Source: Oenococcus kitaharae DSM 17330 (GTDB taxonomy: Bacteria; Bacillota; Bacilli; Lactobacillales; Lactobacillaceae). Taken from it: a stretch of DNA of 64,000 nucleotides. Below the pieces are notes generated by a model, which saw only the letters and a list, made by a program, of their open reading frames with translations, had not been told where the DNA came from and searched no databases. The position numbers were made by a program, and so were the translations under genes. Within the stretch, counting starts at the first letter, position 1; each line of letters starts with the position of its first letter. The stretch is taken from contig NZ_CM001398.1 in the NCBI RefSeq assembly GCF_000241055.1, positions 897,123 to 961,122 on the forward strand. Reading direction: 5' to 3'. Of the stretch, positions 13,971 to 61,009 are shown piece after piece.

Positions 13971-14549
13971 CTATTGAACAATTTTAATTAGGCCTGTTTT
14001 GTTGTTCAAAAAGATAATTCGGTTAATATCAAAGCCACGTTTAATTTGAAAGCCCGTTTTTCTGGTCGATGAAATATCTAATAACGACTCCATAATTTGG
14101 TTAGATCCATCGAAAGCTTTGGTGGCAATAGCCAACGTCTCTTTGTCAGATCTAATTAAATAATCCGCAACTAAACGGTATGTATGATATTGATAAACAA
14201 TTCGACATTGCAAGGAAACAACTTCAGGCAAAAAATCTAACATATGAATCTTATTCTTTAAAATATCAATGTTGCCATGAACCGGCGTTAACTCACTAAA
14301 ATCTAAATTGCATTTTTTTAGATCATTCCAAAAAGATTGTGCTCCCTTTGAATATTTCAATCCTAGTAGGTGCATGAATTGATTTTCTTTAAATTTAACT
14401 GCAAGCGCTCGGTCGTTACCAATTTTGTCCTTGTAAAAATAAGTAATCGTTTGATTCAGAAAAGTATCTTCAAAAAAACGTTGTCCAGATCTCAAACTAT
14501 GCAATGTGTCGCTATATCTAATGAAATTAGTAAATGATCTTCTTTTCAT
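13971..14549 (-). CDS. Possible PBECR4-type nuclease/toxin-like protein
   Basis: 192-aa protein. The segment VKFKENQFMHLLGLKYSKGAQ (about 50-70) resembles the PBECR4 group of phage-encoded barnase/EndoU/RelE-like nucleases, which are common in integrated elements of Firmicutes. It stands alone, next to the integrase gene, without a visible partner. The family call is from memory of the motif only. Confidence 0.45.
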   Translation of the reverse strand: MKRRSFTNFIRYSDTLHSLRSGQRFFEDTFLNQTITYFYKDKIGNDRALAVKFKENQFMHLLGLKYSKGAQSFWNDLKKCNLDFSELTPVHGNIDILKNKIHMLDFLPEVVSLQCRIVYQYHTYRLVADYLIRSDKETLAIATKAFDGSNQIMESLLDISSTRKTGFQIKRGFDINRIIFLNNKTGLIKIVQ

Positions 14550-14867
14550 AAAAATAAAACGACTAAATTAATAGTCGTTCTCAATATGTAGGATGGCGTT
14601 TAAGGTGTCCTAGTCCACCATATTCTATTTTTTCCGTCTTAAGATTGACAGCTGGTAAGCGAATTCCAGCAACTCTAGGTTTTTAAAGATGCGCCAACAT
14701 CTGCCAAGGAGTTAAACAATGGACAAACACGAGCAATGTCTGTCTTTGATTAGTTTAGCAAAATTAATTAAAAAAGTACGCTAATTTATAAAAAATTCTT
14801 TACAAATAGTAGACTATCCGATAATAGATATAGTTCACTCTATCGGTACAGTACATAAGGAGTTCTC
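14550..14867. other. Intergenic region upstream of the integrase
   Basis: About 320 bases without a supported gene. The last 80 bases are AT-rich and probably contain the integrase promoter; aaggagt stands 7 bases before the integrase ATG. I see no complete gene or obvious repeat. Confidence 0.5.
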
Positions 14868-16235: not shown

Positions 16236-16580
16236 GGGGTAGTTCCGGAATTCGACAGGTTATTACAAACATGGACGGCGTTTCCGTTTGTCGGGTCATA
16301 GACTGCAGAAATAACTGCAAAAAATAATGAACCATCTTACGCATTAGCTGCTTGATCGCAGTCGCGTAGCCCTTTGTTGAGTCCACGGCAACATTTTCGG
16401 CTTGATAGTGGATCTGCTGACAAGGTTTCTGTTCGGAGCCGACTTGGTGAAAACGAATCGAACTAGTCTTTTATCTAGAAGTTAGCAACTTGATCTAAGG
16501 CGAATTTGCTTGTTAACTATAAGCGTAGATGTTTATGTGATTGAATAATTTGGACATGGGTTCGACTCCCATCTACTCCA
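16236..16580 (+). ncRNA. ssrA: tmRNA (SsrA)
   Basis: Rescues stalled ribosomes and tags their products for proteolysis. The 5' end GGGGTAG pairs with 3' CTACTCC to give the alanyl-tRNA-like acceptor stem, and GGTTCGACTCCC forms the T arm. The tag frame runs from 16317 to 16355 and reads AKNNEPSYALAA followed by tga. The mature length without CCA is about 345 nt. The last 22 bases serve as the attachment site of the island that follows, and the gene is kept intact. Confidence 0.97.
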
Positions 16581-16582
16581 TT
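16559..16582 (+). repeat. attL of the ssrA island
   Basis: 24-base sequence (starts GGTTCGACTCCC, ends CTCCATT) shared exactly with attR at 25282-25305. It includes the last 22 bases of tmRNA. Confidence 0.93.
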
Positions 16583-16669
16583 GTGTTATGTTCTAAGGGC
16601 GTATAAAGCCCGTGGTTGAGGCATTTCTAAGTTTTACAGGGTTGTGGATAAGTCCTGATATTACTTACA

Positions 16670-46523: not shown

Positions 46524-47006
46524 ATGGCAGAAGCGAATATATCAGATTTAATTGAACAATACTTAAAGGAAATCCTCAGTCAGGATGATTTTGCTGAAAT
46601 TAAACGCAGCGAAATCGCCAGTCGTTTTGCTGTTGTGCCAAGCCAGATTAATTACGTGATTAATACACGATTTACACTGCAAAACGGTTATGTTGTCGAA
46701 TCCAAGCGAGGCGGCGGCGGATATATTCGTATTGAACATGTTGACTTGGTTGACGATACCAAAATTTTCGATGAACTGATCGATTATATCGGTGATTCGA
46801 TTGGTGAGAATAATGCTGGACAAATTATTACGGCACTATTGAATGATAAAGTGGTCAGCGAACGTGAGGCAAATCTGATGGCGGCAGCCATTGACAAGAA
46901 TTCTTTGCGGATTTCTGATAAAGTATCTGAAAACACAGTTAGGGCTCGTGTCCTTGTTGGCATGGTCAATCGACTGAGATTTGAGAGTACAAACACACAT
47001 GGATAA
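46524..47006 (+). CDS. ctsR: Heat-shock repressor CtsR
   Basis: 160-aa class III stress repressor. It has a winged HTH with the beta-wing RGGGGYIRI (near 72), preceded by VPSQINYVINTRFT. Autoregulated through the operator at its own start. In Oenococcus CtsR is the main stress regulator, because other heat-shock repressors are missing. Its stop overlaps clpC. Confidence 0.95.
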   Translation: MAEANISDLIEQYLKEILSQDDFAEIKRSEIASRFAVVPSQINYVINTRFTLQNGYVVESKRGGGGYIRIEHVDLVDDTKIFDELIDYIGDSIGENNAGQIITALLNDKVVSEREANLMAAAIDKNSLRISDKVSENTVRARVLVGMVNRLRFESTNTHG

Positions 47007-49464
47007 TCAATACACAACTTCAGCAAAAAATGTTTTACTTCTGGCCCAAGAACAGGCGAAGTATTTTAAACATGAAATTGTCGGTTCCGAACATTTGTTA
47101 TTGGCTTTGGCACTCGAAAAAGATGGCTTGGCCAGCAAAGTTCTTCAAGACTATAACGTTACCGATGATGACATTAGAAATGAAATCGAACAATTTACAG
47201 GTTACGGTTCACATGAGAATGTGACAGCCGGCTTTTTGGCTTATTCGCCGAAGGCACAGGAAATCCTGAAGAACGCTGCCTTACAGGCACAAAGCTTGGG
47301 TGCAAAAAAAATCGCCACAGAGCATCTGTTGTTGGCTCTGCTAAATGATGAGTCTATTCTTAGTTCGAGGATTTTAGTCAGCCTTGATGTTCGTCTGCAG
47401 GATTTGACGAAAGCTGTTTTCAAGCGAATTGGTGTTGATCCAACGCAGCAGCGGGCAGCTCAGGTACAAAATCAGTCTAATCAAGCTGGAACACCGACAC
47501 TTGATTCAATGTCTCGGGATTTAACCGCGATGGCTCAGGCGGGTCAAATTGATCCAGTCGTCGGACGAGACCAAGAAGTCCATCGGGTGATTCAGATCTT
47601 GAGTCGCCGAACGAAAAATAATCCTGTCTTGATTGGTGAACCTGGTGTCGGAAAGACAGCGATTGCCGAAGGATTAGCCGAGAAAATCGTCAGTGGCCAA
47701 GTACCTTTTGATTTAGCTCATAAGCGTTTAATGGCATTGGATATGGGCGCTTTGATTGCCGGTACGAAATATCGTGGTGAATTTGAAGATCGTTTAAAGA
47801 AAATTATTAACGAAATTCACAACGATGGGCAGGTCATCCTGTTTATTGATGAATTGCACACGTTAATTGGTGCCGGTGGTGCCGAAGGCGCATTGGATGC
47901 TTCAAATTTGCTGAAGCCAGCTTTAGCTCGAGGTGAACTGCAGACAATCGGTGCGACGACCTTTGATGAATATCAGAAGTATATTGAATCTGATCAGGCT
48001 TTGGAACGGCGTTTTGCCAGTGTAACGATTGATGAACCGAATGAAGATGACTCAGTGCAGATTTTAAAGGGTCTGCGCCCTCGATATGAAGAGCACCACC
48101 ATGTGAATATTTCTGATCAGTCGATTGAAGCAGCGGTCAAATTAAGTTCACGTTATATCACGGATCGATTCTTGCCGGATAAAGCGATTGATTTGATGGA
48201 TGAGGCGGCAGCAAAAGTCAGAATCGACACAGTTCAGCCTGAAGACAAAAAAGCCGAATTGGAAAAACATCTGGCACAGTTGCGTGACCAATTGGATGAT
48301 GCCGTTTCCTCTGGAGATTTCGATAAAGCTACTAAAATCCGCCAGGATGAAATCAAGATTAGAAAACAGTTAGCCTTAATTGAGACAGATACTTTGATCA
48401 ACGGCAGCAAAGGGCATGGCTATGGCTTGACCGTTACTGAAAAAGATATTGCCGAAGTTGTCGGCCAGCAAACTGGCGTACCGGTAACACAGTTGCAGAA
48501 GTCGGAATCTGATCGTTTGCTGCATTTGGAGGCGATTCTGCATCGTCGGGTTGTCGGCCAAAATGAAGCTATTTCTGCTGTGGCACGGGCTATTCGTCGC
48601 GCACGGTCTGGTATCAAAGATCCTAGTCGACCAATTGGTACCTTTATGTTCCTTGGGCCGACTGGTGTTGGAAAGACTGAATTGGCTAAAGCACTAGCTG
48701 AGGCAATGTTTGATTCGGAAGATAATATGATTCGTGTTGATATGTCTGAATACCAAGAGTCATACTCTGCTTCGCGTTTAATCGGTTCAGCACCCGGCTA
48801 TGTCGGCTATGACGAAGGCGGACAATTAACTGAGCGCGTTCGCAACCATCCTTACTCAGTTGTTTTGCTAGATGAGGCTGAAAAGGCGCATCCTGATATC
48901 TTTAATTTATTGCTTCAAGTATTTGATGATGGCTATATGACGGATTCTAAAGGACGCAAGGTTGATTTTAGAAACACGATCATTATTATGACATCGAACT
49001 TAGGTGCAACGCGTGTGCGTGATAACAAGCATGTTGGTTTTGGTGCTATGGAACCGCAGGACAATTATCAGGCGATGTCCAGTGAAATTCGTGCAGCCTT
49101 AAAAGAAAGGTTCCGTCCAGAATTTATCAATCGAATTGATGAGACAATTATTTTCCATTCTCTGAACAAGACTGAACTGCATAAAATTGTTGAACTAATG
49201 AGTCATGGAATTTTGGAGCGGGTTGCCGAACAAGGCATCGCGATTAAAATGAGTAAAACGGCCATTGACTTAGTCGCGCAAGCTGGATTTGATCCCGAAT
49301 ATGGTGCCCGCCCAATTCGTCGGGCTTTCCAAAATAATGTCGAAGATGTAGTGTCTGACGCATTATTATCCGGCAGGATCAAAGCTGGTGACTCGGTTAC
49401 TGTAGGTGCCAAAAGAGGGAAAATCGACCTCTTAATCCATAAACAAACCGAAAAAAGTAAATGA
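46999..49464 (+). CDS. clpC: ClpC AAA+ unfoldase
   Basis: 821-aa HSP100 chaperone partner of ClpP. Clp-N repeats occupy about 1-140, AAA1 has Walker [14 protein letters not shown] (near 213), and a UVR-like middle domain lies near 420-460 ([19 protein letters not shown]). AAA2 has [13 protein letters not shown] (near 552) and the C-terminal D2 small domain is present. The ATG at 46999 overlaps ctsR by 8 bases; an upstream in-frame TTG at 46981 is less likely. No mcsA/mcsB pair lies between ctsR and clpC. Confidence 0.95.
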
Positions 49465-49506: not shown

Positions 49507-49962
49507 ATGGAAACTATGGCTGATTATGTCAAAGATATTCGTGCAAAAGTCGGGCATATGCCGCTCGTTATGGTTGGTGTTGGTGGGGCATATATTAAAG
49601 ATGGCAAAGTTCTGCTGCAAGAACGTGCCGACACCGGCGGTTGGGGTTTGCCAGGCGGCTATATGGAATATGGCGAACGTGTTGAAGAGACGCTCAAACG
49701 GGAATTTAAAGAAGATGCCGGCTTGGAAATTTTGTCCTATCGTTTCCTAACTAATTTTGATCAGGAATTTTTCACTTATCCAAACGGTGATCAGACACAA
49801 GTATTGACACCTTTTTATCTCGTAACAGCTGTTAAAAATCAGCCAGCTGCATTTGATAAACATGAAACAAAAGCCATCGCTTTTTTTGATTTTGATCATT
49901 TGCCTGAGATCCATTTCGCATCACACAAAAAAATTCTAGCCTATCTGAAGACTTTGTTATAA
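49507..49962 (+). CDS. Nudix hydrolase
   Basis: 151-aa Nudix pyrophosphohydrolase. The box GGYMEYGERVEETLKREF is followed by KEDAGL, with Asp in place of the second conserved Glu. A TATAAT just upstream (about 49503) leaves little leader, and the start may be the ATG at 49507 or 49516. Substrate not predictable. Confidence 0.85.
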   Translation: METMADYVKDIRAKVGHMPLVMVGVGGAYIKDGKVLLQERADTGGWGLPGGYMEYGERVEETLKREFKEDAGLEILSYRFLTNFDQEFFTYPNGDQTQVLTPFYLVTAVKNQPAAFDKHETKAIAFFDFDHLPEIHFASHKKILAYLKTLL

Positions 49963-49984
49963 TAATTTTAAAGAGGTAAGTCCA

Positions 49985-50014
49985 GTGAAGAATACATTGA
50001 TTTTAAATAGATAA
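49985..50014 (+). CDS. Leader peptide of the ABC-F gene
   Basis: Nine-residue peptide M(V)KNTLILNR starting at GTG, with agaggtaag 5-6 bases upstream. It stands ahead of a terminator/antiterminator pair before an ABC-F gene, the layout of ribosome-mediated attenuation in antibiotic-resistance ABC-F genes. Confidence 0.6.
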   Translation: MKNTLILNR

Positions 50015-50021
50015 AATTCGA

Positions 50022-50076
50022 GATTGGTGTATTTTTAATATTGTTTGAAACCACCGATTTCTAAAAGGTGGTTTTT
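50022..50076 (+). promoter_or_regulatory. Attenuator with alternative folds before the ABC-F gene
   Basis: Terminator: aaaccacc (50048-50055) with ggtggttt (50067-50074) plus T run, ending 2 bases before the ATG and hiding the ribosome site. Antiterminator: gattggtg (50022-50029) can pair over 8 positions (two G-T) with caccgatt (50052-50059), which breaks the terminator. A ribosome stalled on the leader would decide between them. Confidence 0.65.
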
Positions 50077-51423
50077 ATGTCTCTAAATATTACAAAATTA
50101 GAAAAAAGAGTTGATGGCCAACAGCTATTTACGGTTGACAAAGCGTTTATCAAAAATCGGGCACGTATCGGTGTGATTGGTGATAACGGCCAAGGTAAGA
50201 CGACGCTCTTAAATATAATTGCTGGCCGAGATAAGGATTTTAGCGGGCAGTTGTACGTTAGCGGTTCTTTGGCCTTTGTTGCTCAAATAAATGATTTTGA
50301 TCAATTATCAGGCGGTCAGCGTGTCAGACGTTTGATTGAAGAAGCTCTCTTGAAGCGTCCGGATTTATTGATCTTAGATGAACCCACGACACATTTGGAT
50401 CAGGAAAATGTCAATTGGCTGTTGGGCAGATTAAAAAAGTTTTCCGGCAGCGTACTGGCTGTTTCTCATGACCGATATTTTCTTGACCAGTTTGCTCAAG
50501 AAATCTGGGCTTTTCAGGATCATCAGCTAACGGTGTTTCCGTCAACTTTACAAAATTTTTTGGACACACGGGCAGCACAAGCTGAAAGTCAAGCCGCGGC
50601 ATTCAAGGAAAGCCGTAACAAGAAAAAGAAGCTCCAGAAGGCGGAAAACAGGGTTCGTGGCGAAGCACAAAGGATTAGCAATCATAGTGTACGGGATCCT
50701 TTTCATGCTAAAGTCGCCAAACAGATGTTTCAAGTGGCGAAAAATCTGCACCGCCATATGGATAATTTGAATGACGTTTCAAAACCTTTTGTCCAAAAGA
50801 AGCTGAAGCTGCAGCACCCGCTTCACATGGCTGCTGGCAAAAACCTTATAAAAGTTTTGAATCTAGACATTGTTCGAGATGGGCAGACGCTGGTTTCCGA
50901 TCTAACTTTTTCAATCGCCGCTGGTGATAAAGTAGCTTTAATTGGCGAGAATGGTTCTGGCAAGACGACTTCTGTCGAAAGAATTTTACAAGCTCAGCCG
51001 CCGCGGGTCACGAGAGCCGATAATCTGAAAATCGGCTACTTTCATCAAGACCTCAGCCAAATACGTAATGATCGCAATCTCTTAGAAAATGTGCTTGATG
51101 GTTCTTTGGAAAATGGACAGACAGCGCGAGACTTTTTAGGCGCTTTTGGTATACGCCGAGATAAAGTTTTTCAAAAAAGCGGCAGTTTATCAGGCGGTGA
51201 GAAAATCAAATTAGCTTTGATTAAAGTCCTATTATCGGATGCTAATCTGCTGATTTTAGACGAACCGACAAATTTTCTCGACTTATCGGCGATTGAGGCT
51301 TTACAAGATTTCTTGACGGATTATACGGGCGGTTTACTGATCATTTCTCATGATTTGACTTTGATTCAGGCAGTTTCAAATAAGATTTTAAAAATCGAGG
51401 CACAACGTATAATTAAGGTATGA
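50077..51423 (+). CDS. ABC-F ATPase, antibiotic-resistance type
   Basis: 448-aa soluble duplicated ABC protein without membrane domains. Walker A motifs are GDNGQGKTTLLNI (near 36) and GENGSGKTTSVER (near 292). Signatures are LSGGQRVRR and LSGGEKIKLAL. The interdomain linker is long and basic (KESRNKKKKLQKAENRVRGE near 180), as in Msr/Vga/Lsa ribosome-protection proteins. The attenuator upstream supports an antibiotic-inducible role. Its stop overlaps the next start. Confidence 0.88.
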   Translation: MSLNITKLEKRVDGQQLFTVDKAFIKNRARIGVIGDNGQGKTTLLNIIAGRDKDFSGQLYVSGSLAFVAQINDFDQLSGGQRVRRLIEEALLKRPDLLILDEPTTHLDQENVNWLLGRLKKFSGSVLAVSHDRYFLDQFAQEIWAFQDHQLTVFPSTLQNFLDTRAAQAESQAAAFKESRNKKKKLQKAENRVRGEAQRISNHSVRDPFHAKVAKQMFQVAKNLHRHMDNLNDVSKPFVQKKLKLQHPLHMAAGKNLIKVLNLDIVRDGQTLVSDLTFSIAAGDKVALIGENGSGKTTSVERILQAQPPRVTRADNLKIGYFHQDLSQIRNDRNLLENVLDGSLENGQTARDFLGAFGIRRDKVFQKSGSLSGGEKIKLALIKVLLSDANLLILDEPTNFLDLSAIEALQDFLTDYTGGLLIISHDLTLIQAVSNKILKIEAQRIIKV

Positions 51424-52271
51424 GTATTTTAGACGAAACTTTTCAATTGAATAATCAAAACAAAATTCCGAAAATCGCCTTTGGCACCTGGCGATTGGCT
51501 GATGGGGATGAAGCCTACAATGCTGTTACGGAAGCTTTGAAAATCGGTTACCGGCACATTGATACGGCTTTTCATTATTTTAATGAGCCTTCAGTCGGAC
51601 GCGCCATTAAAGATTCCGGCGTTGACAGGAAGGATATTTTTCTGACAACTAAACTACCGGCTGAAATCAAAAATCATGATGATATTTTGAAAAATTTTCA
51701 AGAATCTTTGGACCGTTTGCAGACCGATTATGTTGATCTTTACTTGATTCATGCACCATGGCCATGGTCTGATATCAATCTAGATTATCGCTATGATGGT
51801 GCTAATCAGGAAGCTTGGCGGACGATGGAGGAGATTTATCATTCCGGTCGTGCCAAGGCAATCGGTGTATCTAATTTTGATATCCACGATTTGAAAAATC
51901 TGCAAGCTATTTGGACCGTTAAACCAGCTGTCAATCAGATTGAGTACTATATTGGCTGGACACAACCAAAAATTACGGCCTTTACGAAATCACTCGGTAT
52001 CCAAGTCGAGGCCTATTCACCGCTGGCGACTGGAGGTCTGGCAACACAAGACGAGATTCAGAAAATTGCTGATAAATATCAGGTTTCTGTCCCGCAAATT
52101 GCCCTTAAATATGTGCTTCAAAAAGATATTCTGCCTTTGCCGCGTGCAACGAAGGCTGAGCATGCCAAATCCAATGCTACACTTGATTTCCAACTTTCGG
52201 ACGCCGACATGGCTATTTTGGATCGGATTCCCGATACAGGCCAGGCCCGTCATAATGTGACAATGGGATGA
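51420..52271 (+). CDS. Aldo-keto reductase
   Basis: 283-aa AKR5-like enzyme. DTAFHYFNEPSVG with catalytic Asp/Tyr (about 47-59), TTKLP Lys near 78 and LIHAPWPW His near 109 are present. Overlaps the ABC-F stop by 4 bases (ATGA), so it is co-transcribed. It has no MerR-type promoter of its own. Confidence 0.9.
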   Translation: MSILDETFQLNNQNKIPKIAFGTWRLADGDEAYNAVTEALKIGYRHIDTAFHYFNEPSVGRAIKDSGVDRKDIFLTTKLPAEIKNHDDILKNFQESLDRLQTDYVDLYLIHAPWPWSDINLDYRYDGANQEAWRTMEEIYHSGRAKAIGVSNFDIHDLKNLQAIWTVKPAVNQIEYYIGWTQPKITAFTKSLGIQVEAYSPLATGGLATQDEIQKIADKYQVSVPQIALKYVLQKDILPLPRATKAEHAKSNATLDFQLSDADMAILDRIPDTGQARHNVTMG

Positions 52272-60366: not shown

Positions 60367-60785
60367 TCTTCAAATTCCTCCATAAACTTTTTCATCATGG
60401 CAAGTCCGCTGGTTCTGTGTCGGTAAACAGTGGAACGGTTAAATTTTAGCATGTCAGCAATTTCTGAATCGCTCATATCCATAAAATAGAACAGGAGCAG
60501 AATATCCCGTTTGTTGCTTGGTAAAGCCCGTAATGCTTCACTTAGCAGGTCATTCTCAATCCCGATGGATATGCCATTCAGCATAAAAACCTGAAAATCC
60601 GTTGAATAACTGTCTGTTGTGGCAAACTGGTTGACAAGATAATCGCCAATTTCCGAAAAGGACACTTCATGCTTTGCCAGTCTTGAAAGCTGTTTGAAAT
60701 AGTCTTTTCGTTCATCTTCCATAGCTCGTTTGCAGATATAGTCAAACTGATTTTCTATCGTTGCCTGAAAAGATGATGGTTTCAT
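60363..60785 (-). CDS. Sigma-70-like regulator of a Tn916-type element
   Basis: 140-aa ECF-like sigma/HTH protein. The region-4-type HTH is KRDILLLFYFMDMSDSEIAD followed by RSTVYRHRTSGL (about 95-130). Such proteins sit in the regulatory module of Tn916/CTn-like elements of Firmicutes. Ribosome site aaaggaggtgag. Confidence 0.83.
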   Translation of the reverse strand: MKPSSFQATIENQFDYICKRAMEDERKDYFKQLSRLAKHEVSFSEIGDYLVNQFATTDSYSTDFQVFMLNGISIGIENDLLSEALRALPSNKRDILLLFYFMDMSDSEIADMLKFNRSTVYRHRTSGLAMMKKFMEEFEE

Positions 60786-61009
60786 TTTCTCACCTCCTTT
60801 CTTTGGATTGAAAGGAAGTGAGTTTTGCTCCTTTGCCTCCTTTCACTCTTAGTCCCGACGTGAAAGGGGGATTTGTTGCATTGCCGGTCAAAAAATTTTC
60901 GGACAAATAAAAAACACACAAACAGATTGCTCTCTGTTCATGTGCTTTGCCGGTTTTGATTATGATTGTTAAAAAATATGGAGGATTCTTTTGTATAGAT
61001 TGTGGTGTG
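60786..61009. other. Promoter region of the sigma-like gene
   Basis: Repeated aaaggag/ctccttt blocks (60795-60850) and a possible hairpin, acacaaacagatt / ctctctgttcatgtg, near 60913-60950. No gene seen. Confidence 0.4.

Follow-up and report, generated by a model that had tools for sequence, protein, structure and literature searches.

Genes and features at the locus

The locus described here lies in a stretch of 64,000 nucleotides from Oenococcus kitaharae DSM 17330 (contig NZ_CM001398.1, positions 897,123 to 961,122), which we call the window and to which all coordinates refer. The genes run in the order clpC-like ATPase, Nudix hydrolase, leader, ABC-F ATPase and aldo/keto reductase, and within the leader a short open reading frame (segment 1) is followed by three further segments, the last of which is the ribosome site of the ABC-F gene. 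The features are as follows.

46981-49464, clpC-like ATPase gene, named by eye
Stop at 49962, Nudix hydrolase gene, adjoining the leader on its 5' side
49955-49963, + strand, extended -10 promoter TGTTATAAT, which reads TTTG[T/A]TATAAT across five of five genomes
49970-49976, + strand, Shine-Dalgarno site of the leader, AAAGAGG, with GAGG invariant in five of five genomes
49985-50014, + strand, leader ORF with a GTG start, encoding MKNTLILNR; segment 1; open in five of five genomes
49988-50004 with 50020-50036, + strand, helix 1:2, 17 pairs joining the leader ORF to segment 2
50020-50029 with 50052-50061, + strand, helix 2:3, the antiterminator or anti-sequestering helix, 10 bp
50047-50055 with 50067-50075, + strand, helix 3:4, with nine of nine pairs in all four distinct sequences
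50066-50071, + strand, Shine-Dalgarno site of the ABC-F gene, AGGTGG; segment 4; 5 nt before the ATG at 50077
50077-51423, + strand, ABC-F ATPase gene, 448 aa, assigned by ATP sites, family profiles and fold comparison
51420-52271, + strand, aldo/keto reductase gene (PF00248), overlapping the ABC-F stop

The extended -10 box overlaps the end of the Nudix gene and would be expected to start a transcript near 49970; a two-hexamer promoter scan listed no + strand promoter before the ABC-F gene. The sequence-only reading that preceded this analysis had proposed a nine-codon leader ORF with its own ribosome site, and both are present, with AAAGAGG lying 8 nt upstream of the GTG and the codons reading GTG AAG AAT ACA TTG ATT TTA AAT AGA TAA. 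Elsewhere in the window, a tmRNA gene is found at 16236-16583 (Rfam, 110 bits).

The ABC-F protein

Both ATP sites of the protein are intact by motif and a membrane domain is absent. The score against the profile for ribosomal protection-like ABC-F proteins (NF000355) barely reaches its cut-off (380.4 bits, cut-off 380), and that against the Vga family profile (NF000170) stays below it (383.9 bits, cut-off 725). The nearest proteins by sequence are VgaL (E 2.6e-83) and VgaA(LC), and a structure model with a mean pLDDT of 88.6 is nearest by fold to VgaL as well (Z 38.8, rmsd 5.3, 445 residues aligned), with VgaA(LC) also near. By its ATP sites, its absent membrane domain and its VgaL/VgaA fold the protein can be classed as an ARE1-like antibiotic resistance ABC-F, a tree-free label taken solely from its likeness to VgaL. 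Kinship with VgaL and VgaA(LC) would suggest that the drugs concerned are pleuromutilins, lincosamides and streptogramin A and not macrolides, and the ABC-F is presumed to confer resistance. The tip between the ATP domains carries a drug-acting loop in relatives. Here the segment between the ATP domains is about 9 residues shorter than that of VgaL in the alignment, and its tip is modelled as a 4-residue turn (residues 204-207). A tip this short could signify a different range of drugs, a weaker effect or an absence of resistance.

Three competing helices

Segment 2 (50020-50029) has two exclusive partners, the leader ORF in helix 1:2 and segment 3 in helix 2:3, and segment 3 likewise pairs with either segment 2 or segment 4; the computed helices are thus mutually exclusive, and the leader ORF overlaps the first of them. 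The antiterminator put forward in the sequence-only reading, GATTGGTG at 50022-50029 with CACCGATT at 50052-50059, is correct as far as it goes, the helix being in fact 10 bp long (50020-50029 with 50052-50061). The same reading called the switch complete, but the parts it listed lack any competitor of the antiterminator when no ribosome is stalled; helix 1:2 supplies one. The last hairpin, formed by helix 3:4, runs into TTTTTATG, that is TTTTT followed by the ABC-F ATG, and it encloses GGTGG (50067-50071), part of the ABC-F Shine-Dalgarno site.

Pairing is well kept among the four distinct sequences available from the genus. In helix 1:2, 96.8% of the cells with letters are paired and three pairs have changed on both sides, with three of the 17 pairs falling in a gap in two sequences; the three distant species lack an extension that this helix has in the window sequence (49983-49987 with 50039-50043). 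For helix 2:3 the count is 39 paired cells out of 40, one pair having changed on both sides, whereas control versions in which the helix was slid are 27-60% paired. Position 50025 is T or C, and its pairings with 49999 and with 50056 are both kept. RNAalifold unaided proposed helices 1:2 and 3:4 with an unhelpful covariation term (+0.52), and the covariation scores, calculated from only four distinct and related sequences, were reached by 87 of 500 shuffles for helix 2:3 and by 60 of 500 for helices 1:2 and 3:4 together.

In the minimum-energy fold the leader ORF is joined to 50020-50043. The region 49963-50090 is more stable than expected (z = -3.63, with none of 200 shuffles as stable), and its z is the fourth lowest of those calculated for 55 regions upstream of genes in the window. 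All four real sequences show the three-helix topology, as do 39 (window sequence), 16, 34 and 18 of 2000 whole-sequence dinucleotide shuffles of each, rates that are not to be multiplied because the four sequences are related; shuffling the middle only gave 28, 15, 26 and 8 of 2000. Shuffling produces the topology at a low but not negligible rate; conservation carries more weight as an argument.

Two other upstream regions in the window also have strong predicted folds. That at 60785-60960 on the minus strand has the lowest z of the 55 (-4.97) and forms a hairpin that holds the Shine-Dalgarno site of a small gene, which by eye we take to resemble the sigma factor of Tn916-like elements; that at 14549-14660, also on the minus strand, has a z of -3.98 and no Rfam match at threshold.

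Conservation within the genus

A protein search (E <= 1e-60) finds the ABC-F in five of seven Oenococcus genomes, including all five of the near-complete ones; the two without a match are 65% and 68% complete. Upstream of the gene, all five carry the same series of elements: the extended -10 sequence, GAGG, TCCAGTGAAGAA, an ORF of 9 or 12 codons, and GGTGGTTTTT[A/G]TG at the gene start. The leader peptides are MKNTLILNR (two genomes), MKNTLIPKK, MKKTLIPKK and MKKALILNELKN, and they share MK[N/K][T/A]LI, with codon 5 read as TTG, TTA or CTA and always Leu. Two of the five leaders are identical, which leaves the four distinct sequences of the helix counts.

Sequence comparison shows where this conservation is concentrated. 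Between the two genomes of the window type and the other three, promoter and leader are 70-74% identical, compared with 54-56% for the first 600 nt of the ABC-F gene, 65-67% for its later part, and 35-37% for the 200 nt further upstream, where the neighbouring gene differs. Among the other three genomes the ranges are 68-89% for the leader, 60-80% for the first 600 nt, 67-82% for the later part and 60-93% for the upstream DNA, which in the closest pair is as alike as the leader. For distant species overall, identity is 68-74% in the leader and 54-62% over the first 600 nt of the gene.

The reductase gene lies downstream of the ABC-F gene in all four of the other genus loci, as identified by sequence. 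Three of the five loci have a different upstream neighbour, a divergent gene whose protein starts with MTNYQFLQ or MANYQFLQ and is presumably old yellow enzyme-like, and in these same three a Nudix-type gene, recognized by eye, lies 3' of the reductase instead. Since promoter, leader, ABC-F and reductase are kept together though the neighbouring gene differs, they constitute a unit that is independent of it. It is into this conserved setting that the least probable explanation has to be fitted, namely that a chance short ORF happens to lie among hairpins: A+T-rich DNA often contains hairpins as well as short ORFs that have a ribosome site, and 0.8-2% of whole-sequence shuffles form the three helices, but the arrangement is kept in five of five genomes and the leaders of distant species are more alike than the first 600 nt of coding sequence, making chance very improbable.

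Two of the genomes show peculiarities of their own. One of them (G002, locus L005) has an interruption in the ABC-F frame, close to the 5' end, and an intact promoter and leader. The other, G005, is the closest relative and carries a second ABC-F gene (L031, G005:C2:455698-457050, minus strand) whose product is 35% identical to the one described here and which has its own tripeptide leader, MRN; no second copy was found in the other six genus genomes, two of them incomplete, at E <= 1e-60.

Simulated switching

The effect of a stalled ribosome was modelled by keeping unpaired every base as far as 15 nt beyond the first position of the P-site codon. Ribosome-free RNA extending through the T run has helices 1:2 and 3:4 as its best fold in four of four distinct sequences, and when a ribosome sits at codon 3 or 5 and the RNA extends to the end of GGUGG, helix 2:3 is the best fold, again in four of four. 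The leader computes as a three-state switch in which 1:2 together with 3:4 is the off configuration and 2:3 the on configuration.

The outcome depends on how much RNA is present. When ribosome-free RNA is cut just before segment 4, helix 2:3 is preferred in three of the four sequences, and the off state thus needs helix 1:2 to form first and to hold, or else segment 4 to displace 2:3. Conversely, stalled RNA that includes the T run returns to helix 3:4 in L003 and L005 with the ribosome at either codon 3 or codon 5, and in the window RNA with the ribosome at codon 3. Both results speak for a dependence on timing.

For the window sequence from 49970 to 50110, a ribosome at any of codons 1-8 yields helix 2:3 and one at codon 9 or at the stop yields helix 3:4. 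The computed unpaired fraction of the Shine-Dalgarno site over the same length is 0.14 for free RNA, 0.25-0.34 for codons 1-8 and 0.14-0.17 when the ribosome is at codon 9 or the stop. Folded with a 3' end that is shorter, the window sequence goes from 0.28 to 0.34-0.55, and the maxima for the other three sequences are 0.36, 0.41 and 0.45, starting from 0.33, 0.26 and 0.27 respectively. Equilibrium folding of the complete leader thus gives only modest opening, and folding at nascent length is clearer.

A probable leader-peptide attenuator ahead of the ABC-F gene

We favor the interpretation, with a probability of roughly 0.8, that a leader-peptide attenuator makes the ABC-F gene, and probably also the overlapping reductase gene, inducible. 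The claim in the sequence-only reading of a ribosome-sensing leader that controls the ABC-F gene holds up in its anatomy, in its conservation within the genus and in its agreement with published layouts, with the reservation that the set of parts it named would not switch alone.

In the absence of drug, ribosomes would pass quickly through the short leader, and the leader region would fold onto segment 2. With helix 1:2 formed, segment 3 would be free for segment 4, the ABC-F start would be hidden, and some transcripts may end at that point. A ribosome held by a drug at about codons 1-8 would cover segment 1, such that helix 2:3 could form ahead of the synthesis of segment 4, leaving the Shine-Dalgarno site open; one halted at the last codon or the stop would cover part of segment 2, and the gene would stay off. 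Induction by drugs is putative, as are the stalling and the identity of the inducer, the likely candidates being drugs that halt the ribosome immediately after initiation (pleuromutilin, lincosamide, streptogramin A).

Comparison with known leaders

The sequence-only reading had stated that ABC-F genes in other genera use this layout, and it does match the published attenuators of cplR, vmlR and msrD. The cplR leader of Clostridioides difficile (uORF MR[I/M]) likewise has its uORF inside a 5' hairpin, and shares with the Oenococcus leader an exclusive antiterminator and a hairpin, in cplR a terminator, which lies at the start codon and also conceals the Shine-Dalgarno site (PMC10201436). It differs in having a 212-nt leader with a tripeptide uORF, where that of Oenococcus measures about 107 nt from its expected start and has 9-12 codons, and in having a free poly-U after its hairpin, where the short T run of Oenococcus is largely consumed by pairing. 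The vmlR leader of Bacillus subtilis (uORF MIN) has the anti-antiterminator, the antiterminator and the hiding of the Shine-Dalgarno site in common with it, but comprises four stem-loops in 219 nt, with separate terminator and Shine-Dalgarno hairpins and a NusG-dependent pause (PMC9226507), whereas in Oenococcus one hairpin would do both jobs. The msrD leader of streptococci (MsrDL, MYLIFM) also places a leader peptide ahead of an ABC-F gene, together with a terminator that is weak, like the hairpin in Oenococcus; its macrolide-specific stop occurs at the stop codon (PMC10314930), where in the window sequence a ribosome is predicted to keep the gene off. Macrolide sensing in the manner of MsrDL was considered and rejected as a first choice, on account of that prediction for the window sequence and of a protein that is nearest to VgaL.

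Published leaders of the cplR, vmlR, vmlR2 and lsaA set are 3-4 codons long (MIN, MR[I/M], MK[L/Q], MAGN), and the authors attribute stalling on these leaders to drugs whose action comes directly after initiation (PMC10201436). The Oenococcus leaders start with MK[N/K] but continue for 9 or 12 codons in five of five genomes, and so fall outside this short class. We also read 15 outside ABC-F upstream regions, in 10 of which a tripeptide ORF of the form Met-x-x is accompanied by a possible ribosome site, a count made without a chance control; they agree with the published short leaders, and are listed here by locus.

Listed by program: L008 MRI, L031 MRN, L039 MRI
Listed by program: L006 MKF, L007 MRN, L032 MNN, L046 MKF
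Found by eye: L009 MAA, L010 MRN, L013 MKL

Of the remainder, L056 has MINK, and no leader could be called in L011, L012, L037 and L038. A tripeptide leader whose stop codon was lost may have been the ancestor of the Oenococcus leader. An instructive case is L007, from a genome of another genus of the family (G024), which has GATTGGTG in segment 2 and GGTGGTTTTT in segment 4 before the ATG, as in Oenococcus. It folds into the same free and nascent-stalled states, and at full length the stalled L007 RNA keeps helix 3:4. Its leader is the tripeptide MRN with a longer spacer, and its ABC-F is only 37% identical.

Rfam gives no match at or above the gathering threshold near the leader. A covariance model of the leader (R1) run over 150 genomes gives five strong matches (107-121 bits), all at its own loci; at E <= 1 there is some match in 46 of the 150 genomes, those five included, and the best of the others scores 36.1 bits. 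A distant homologue may be present among these weak matches. Over 73 sources (the window and 72 loci), R1 gives only weak matches besides the window, the best at 26.4 bits. Neither run of R1 reports L007.

Termination or sequestration of the ribosome site

The sequence-only reading described a terminator that ends at the start codon. The hairpin is positioned as described, but as an intrinsic terminator it is weak: its G+C core, CCACC/GGTGG, amounts to -6.6 kcal/mol and ranks 73rd of 168 T-followed hairpins in the window, in a scan that takes only hairpins ending before the T run. On these values we rejected its reading as a strong terminator. Inclusion of A-U pairs, which use up the T run, brings the hairpin to -11.9 kcal/mol, and the hairpin after the clpC-like gene, used for comparison, reaches -14.2 kcal/mol. 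A terminator scan with a loop limit of 8 listed none at the leader.

The most serious alternative to an attenuator with some termination is a purely translational one in the style of ErmC, in which helix 3:4 only hides the Shine-Dalgarno site and transcription is not ended. GGTGG is paired in all four distinct sequences, and the G+C core with its five T is weaker than the hairpin after the clpC-like gene. Against this, the hairpin and its five T are conserved and the T run directly after GGTGG is invariant; the msrD terminator has only -7.9 kcal/mol and yet works (PMC10314930), and in cplR the same hairpin is described as both ending transcription at the start codon and hiding the Shine-Dalgarno site (PMC10201436). 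The nascent folds, moreover, favor a switch that depends on timing, and the need for timing argues for some coupling to transcription. We consider the purely translational version a substantial contender at somewhat less than even odds. Given a last hairpin that makes a weak terminator and at the same time conceals the Shine-Dalgarno site, translational control is at least as likely as termination, and for cplR translational control alone suffices for the off state (PMC10201436). We favor translational control with optional termination.

What the leader may sense

The leader might sense a specific stall context, with Thr or Ala at codon 4 and Leu-Ile at codons 5-6, for example through a phenicol- or oxazolidinone-type stop, and not initiation. 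Ala or Thr next to last is the context of phenicol- and oxazolidinone-type stalls. The sharing of MK[N/K][T/A]LI by all five leaders and the constancy of Leu at codon 5 fit this, as does a leader longer than the 3-4 codons published for such ABC-F genes (PMC10201436). The same bases are nonetheless held by pairing with segment 2, so that conservation of the peptide is inseparable from the constraint of the helix, and pleuromutilin, lincosamide and streptogramin A are the drugs against which the closest ABC-F relatives give protection; we regard such sensing as unlikely. A related and doubtful proposal is that Oenococcus turned a tripeptide leader, of the sort found at related ABC-F genes, into a sensor of 9-12 codons. 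Its body (T/A-L-I at codons 4-6) would be selective for particular drugs or nascent chains, and a ribosome at codons 1-8 would turn the gene on and one at the stop codon would turn it off. If this is true, the leader would respond to elongation inhibitors, whereas those of its relatives sense inhibition at the initiation stage.

A somewhat less likely alternative still is that the ABC-F is a housekeeping translation factor and that its leader reports general translation stress and not a drug. This would suit a gene that occurs in all five near-complete genomes of the genus as a conserved pair with the reductase, and a protein with so short an inter-ATP-domain segment. The protein does reach the curated cut-off for ribosomal protection-like proteins, albeit only just; the interrupted frame in G002, which could be an assembly error, would make the gene dispensable there; and the layout of the leader is that of resistance genes. 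Drug-responsive attenuation remains the reading we prefer.

Implications

The ribosome-mediated design of ABC-F attenuators of the cplR and vmlR type is already published, and the Oenococcus example is a compact and new one; no report of a drug-sensing ABC-F leader in Oenococcus appears among the literature matches listed. It would extend these attenuators to that genus and, at half the length of the cplR and vmlR leaders, should be handy for work in vitro. Its 9-12 codons allow testing of whether the length and sequence of a leader set its inducer, as the authors of the cplR study urge (PMC10201436). If our interpretation is right, the resistance might also go unexpressed during screening of food cultures for as long as no inducer is present. 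Oenococcus is a genus of wine and food bacteria.
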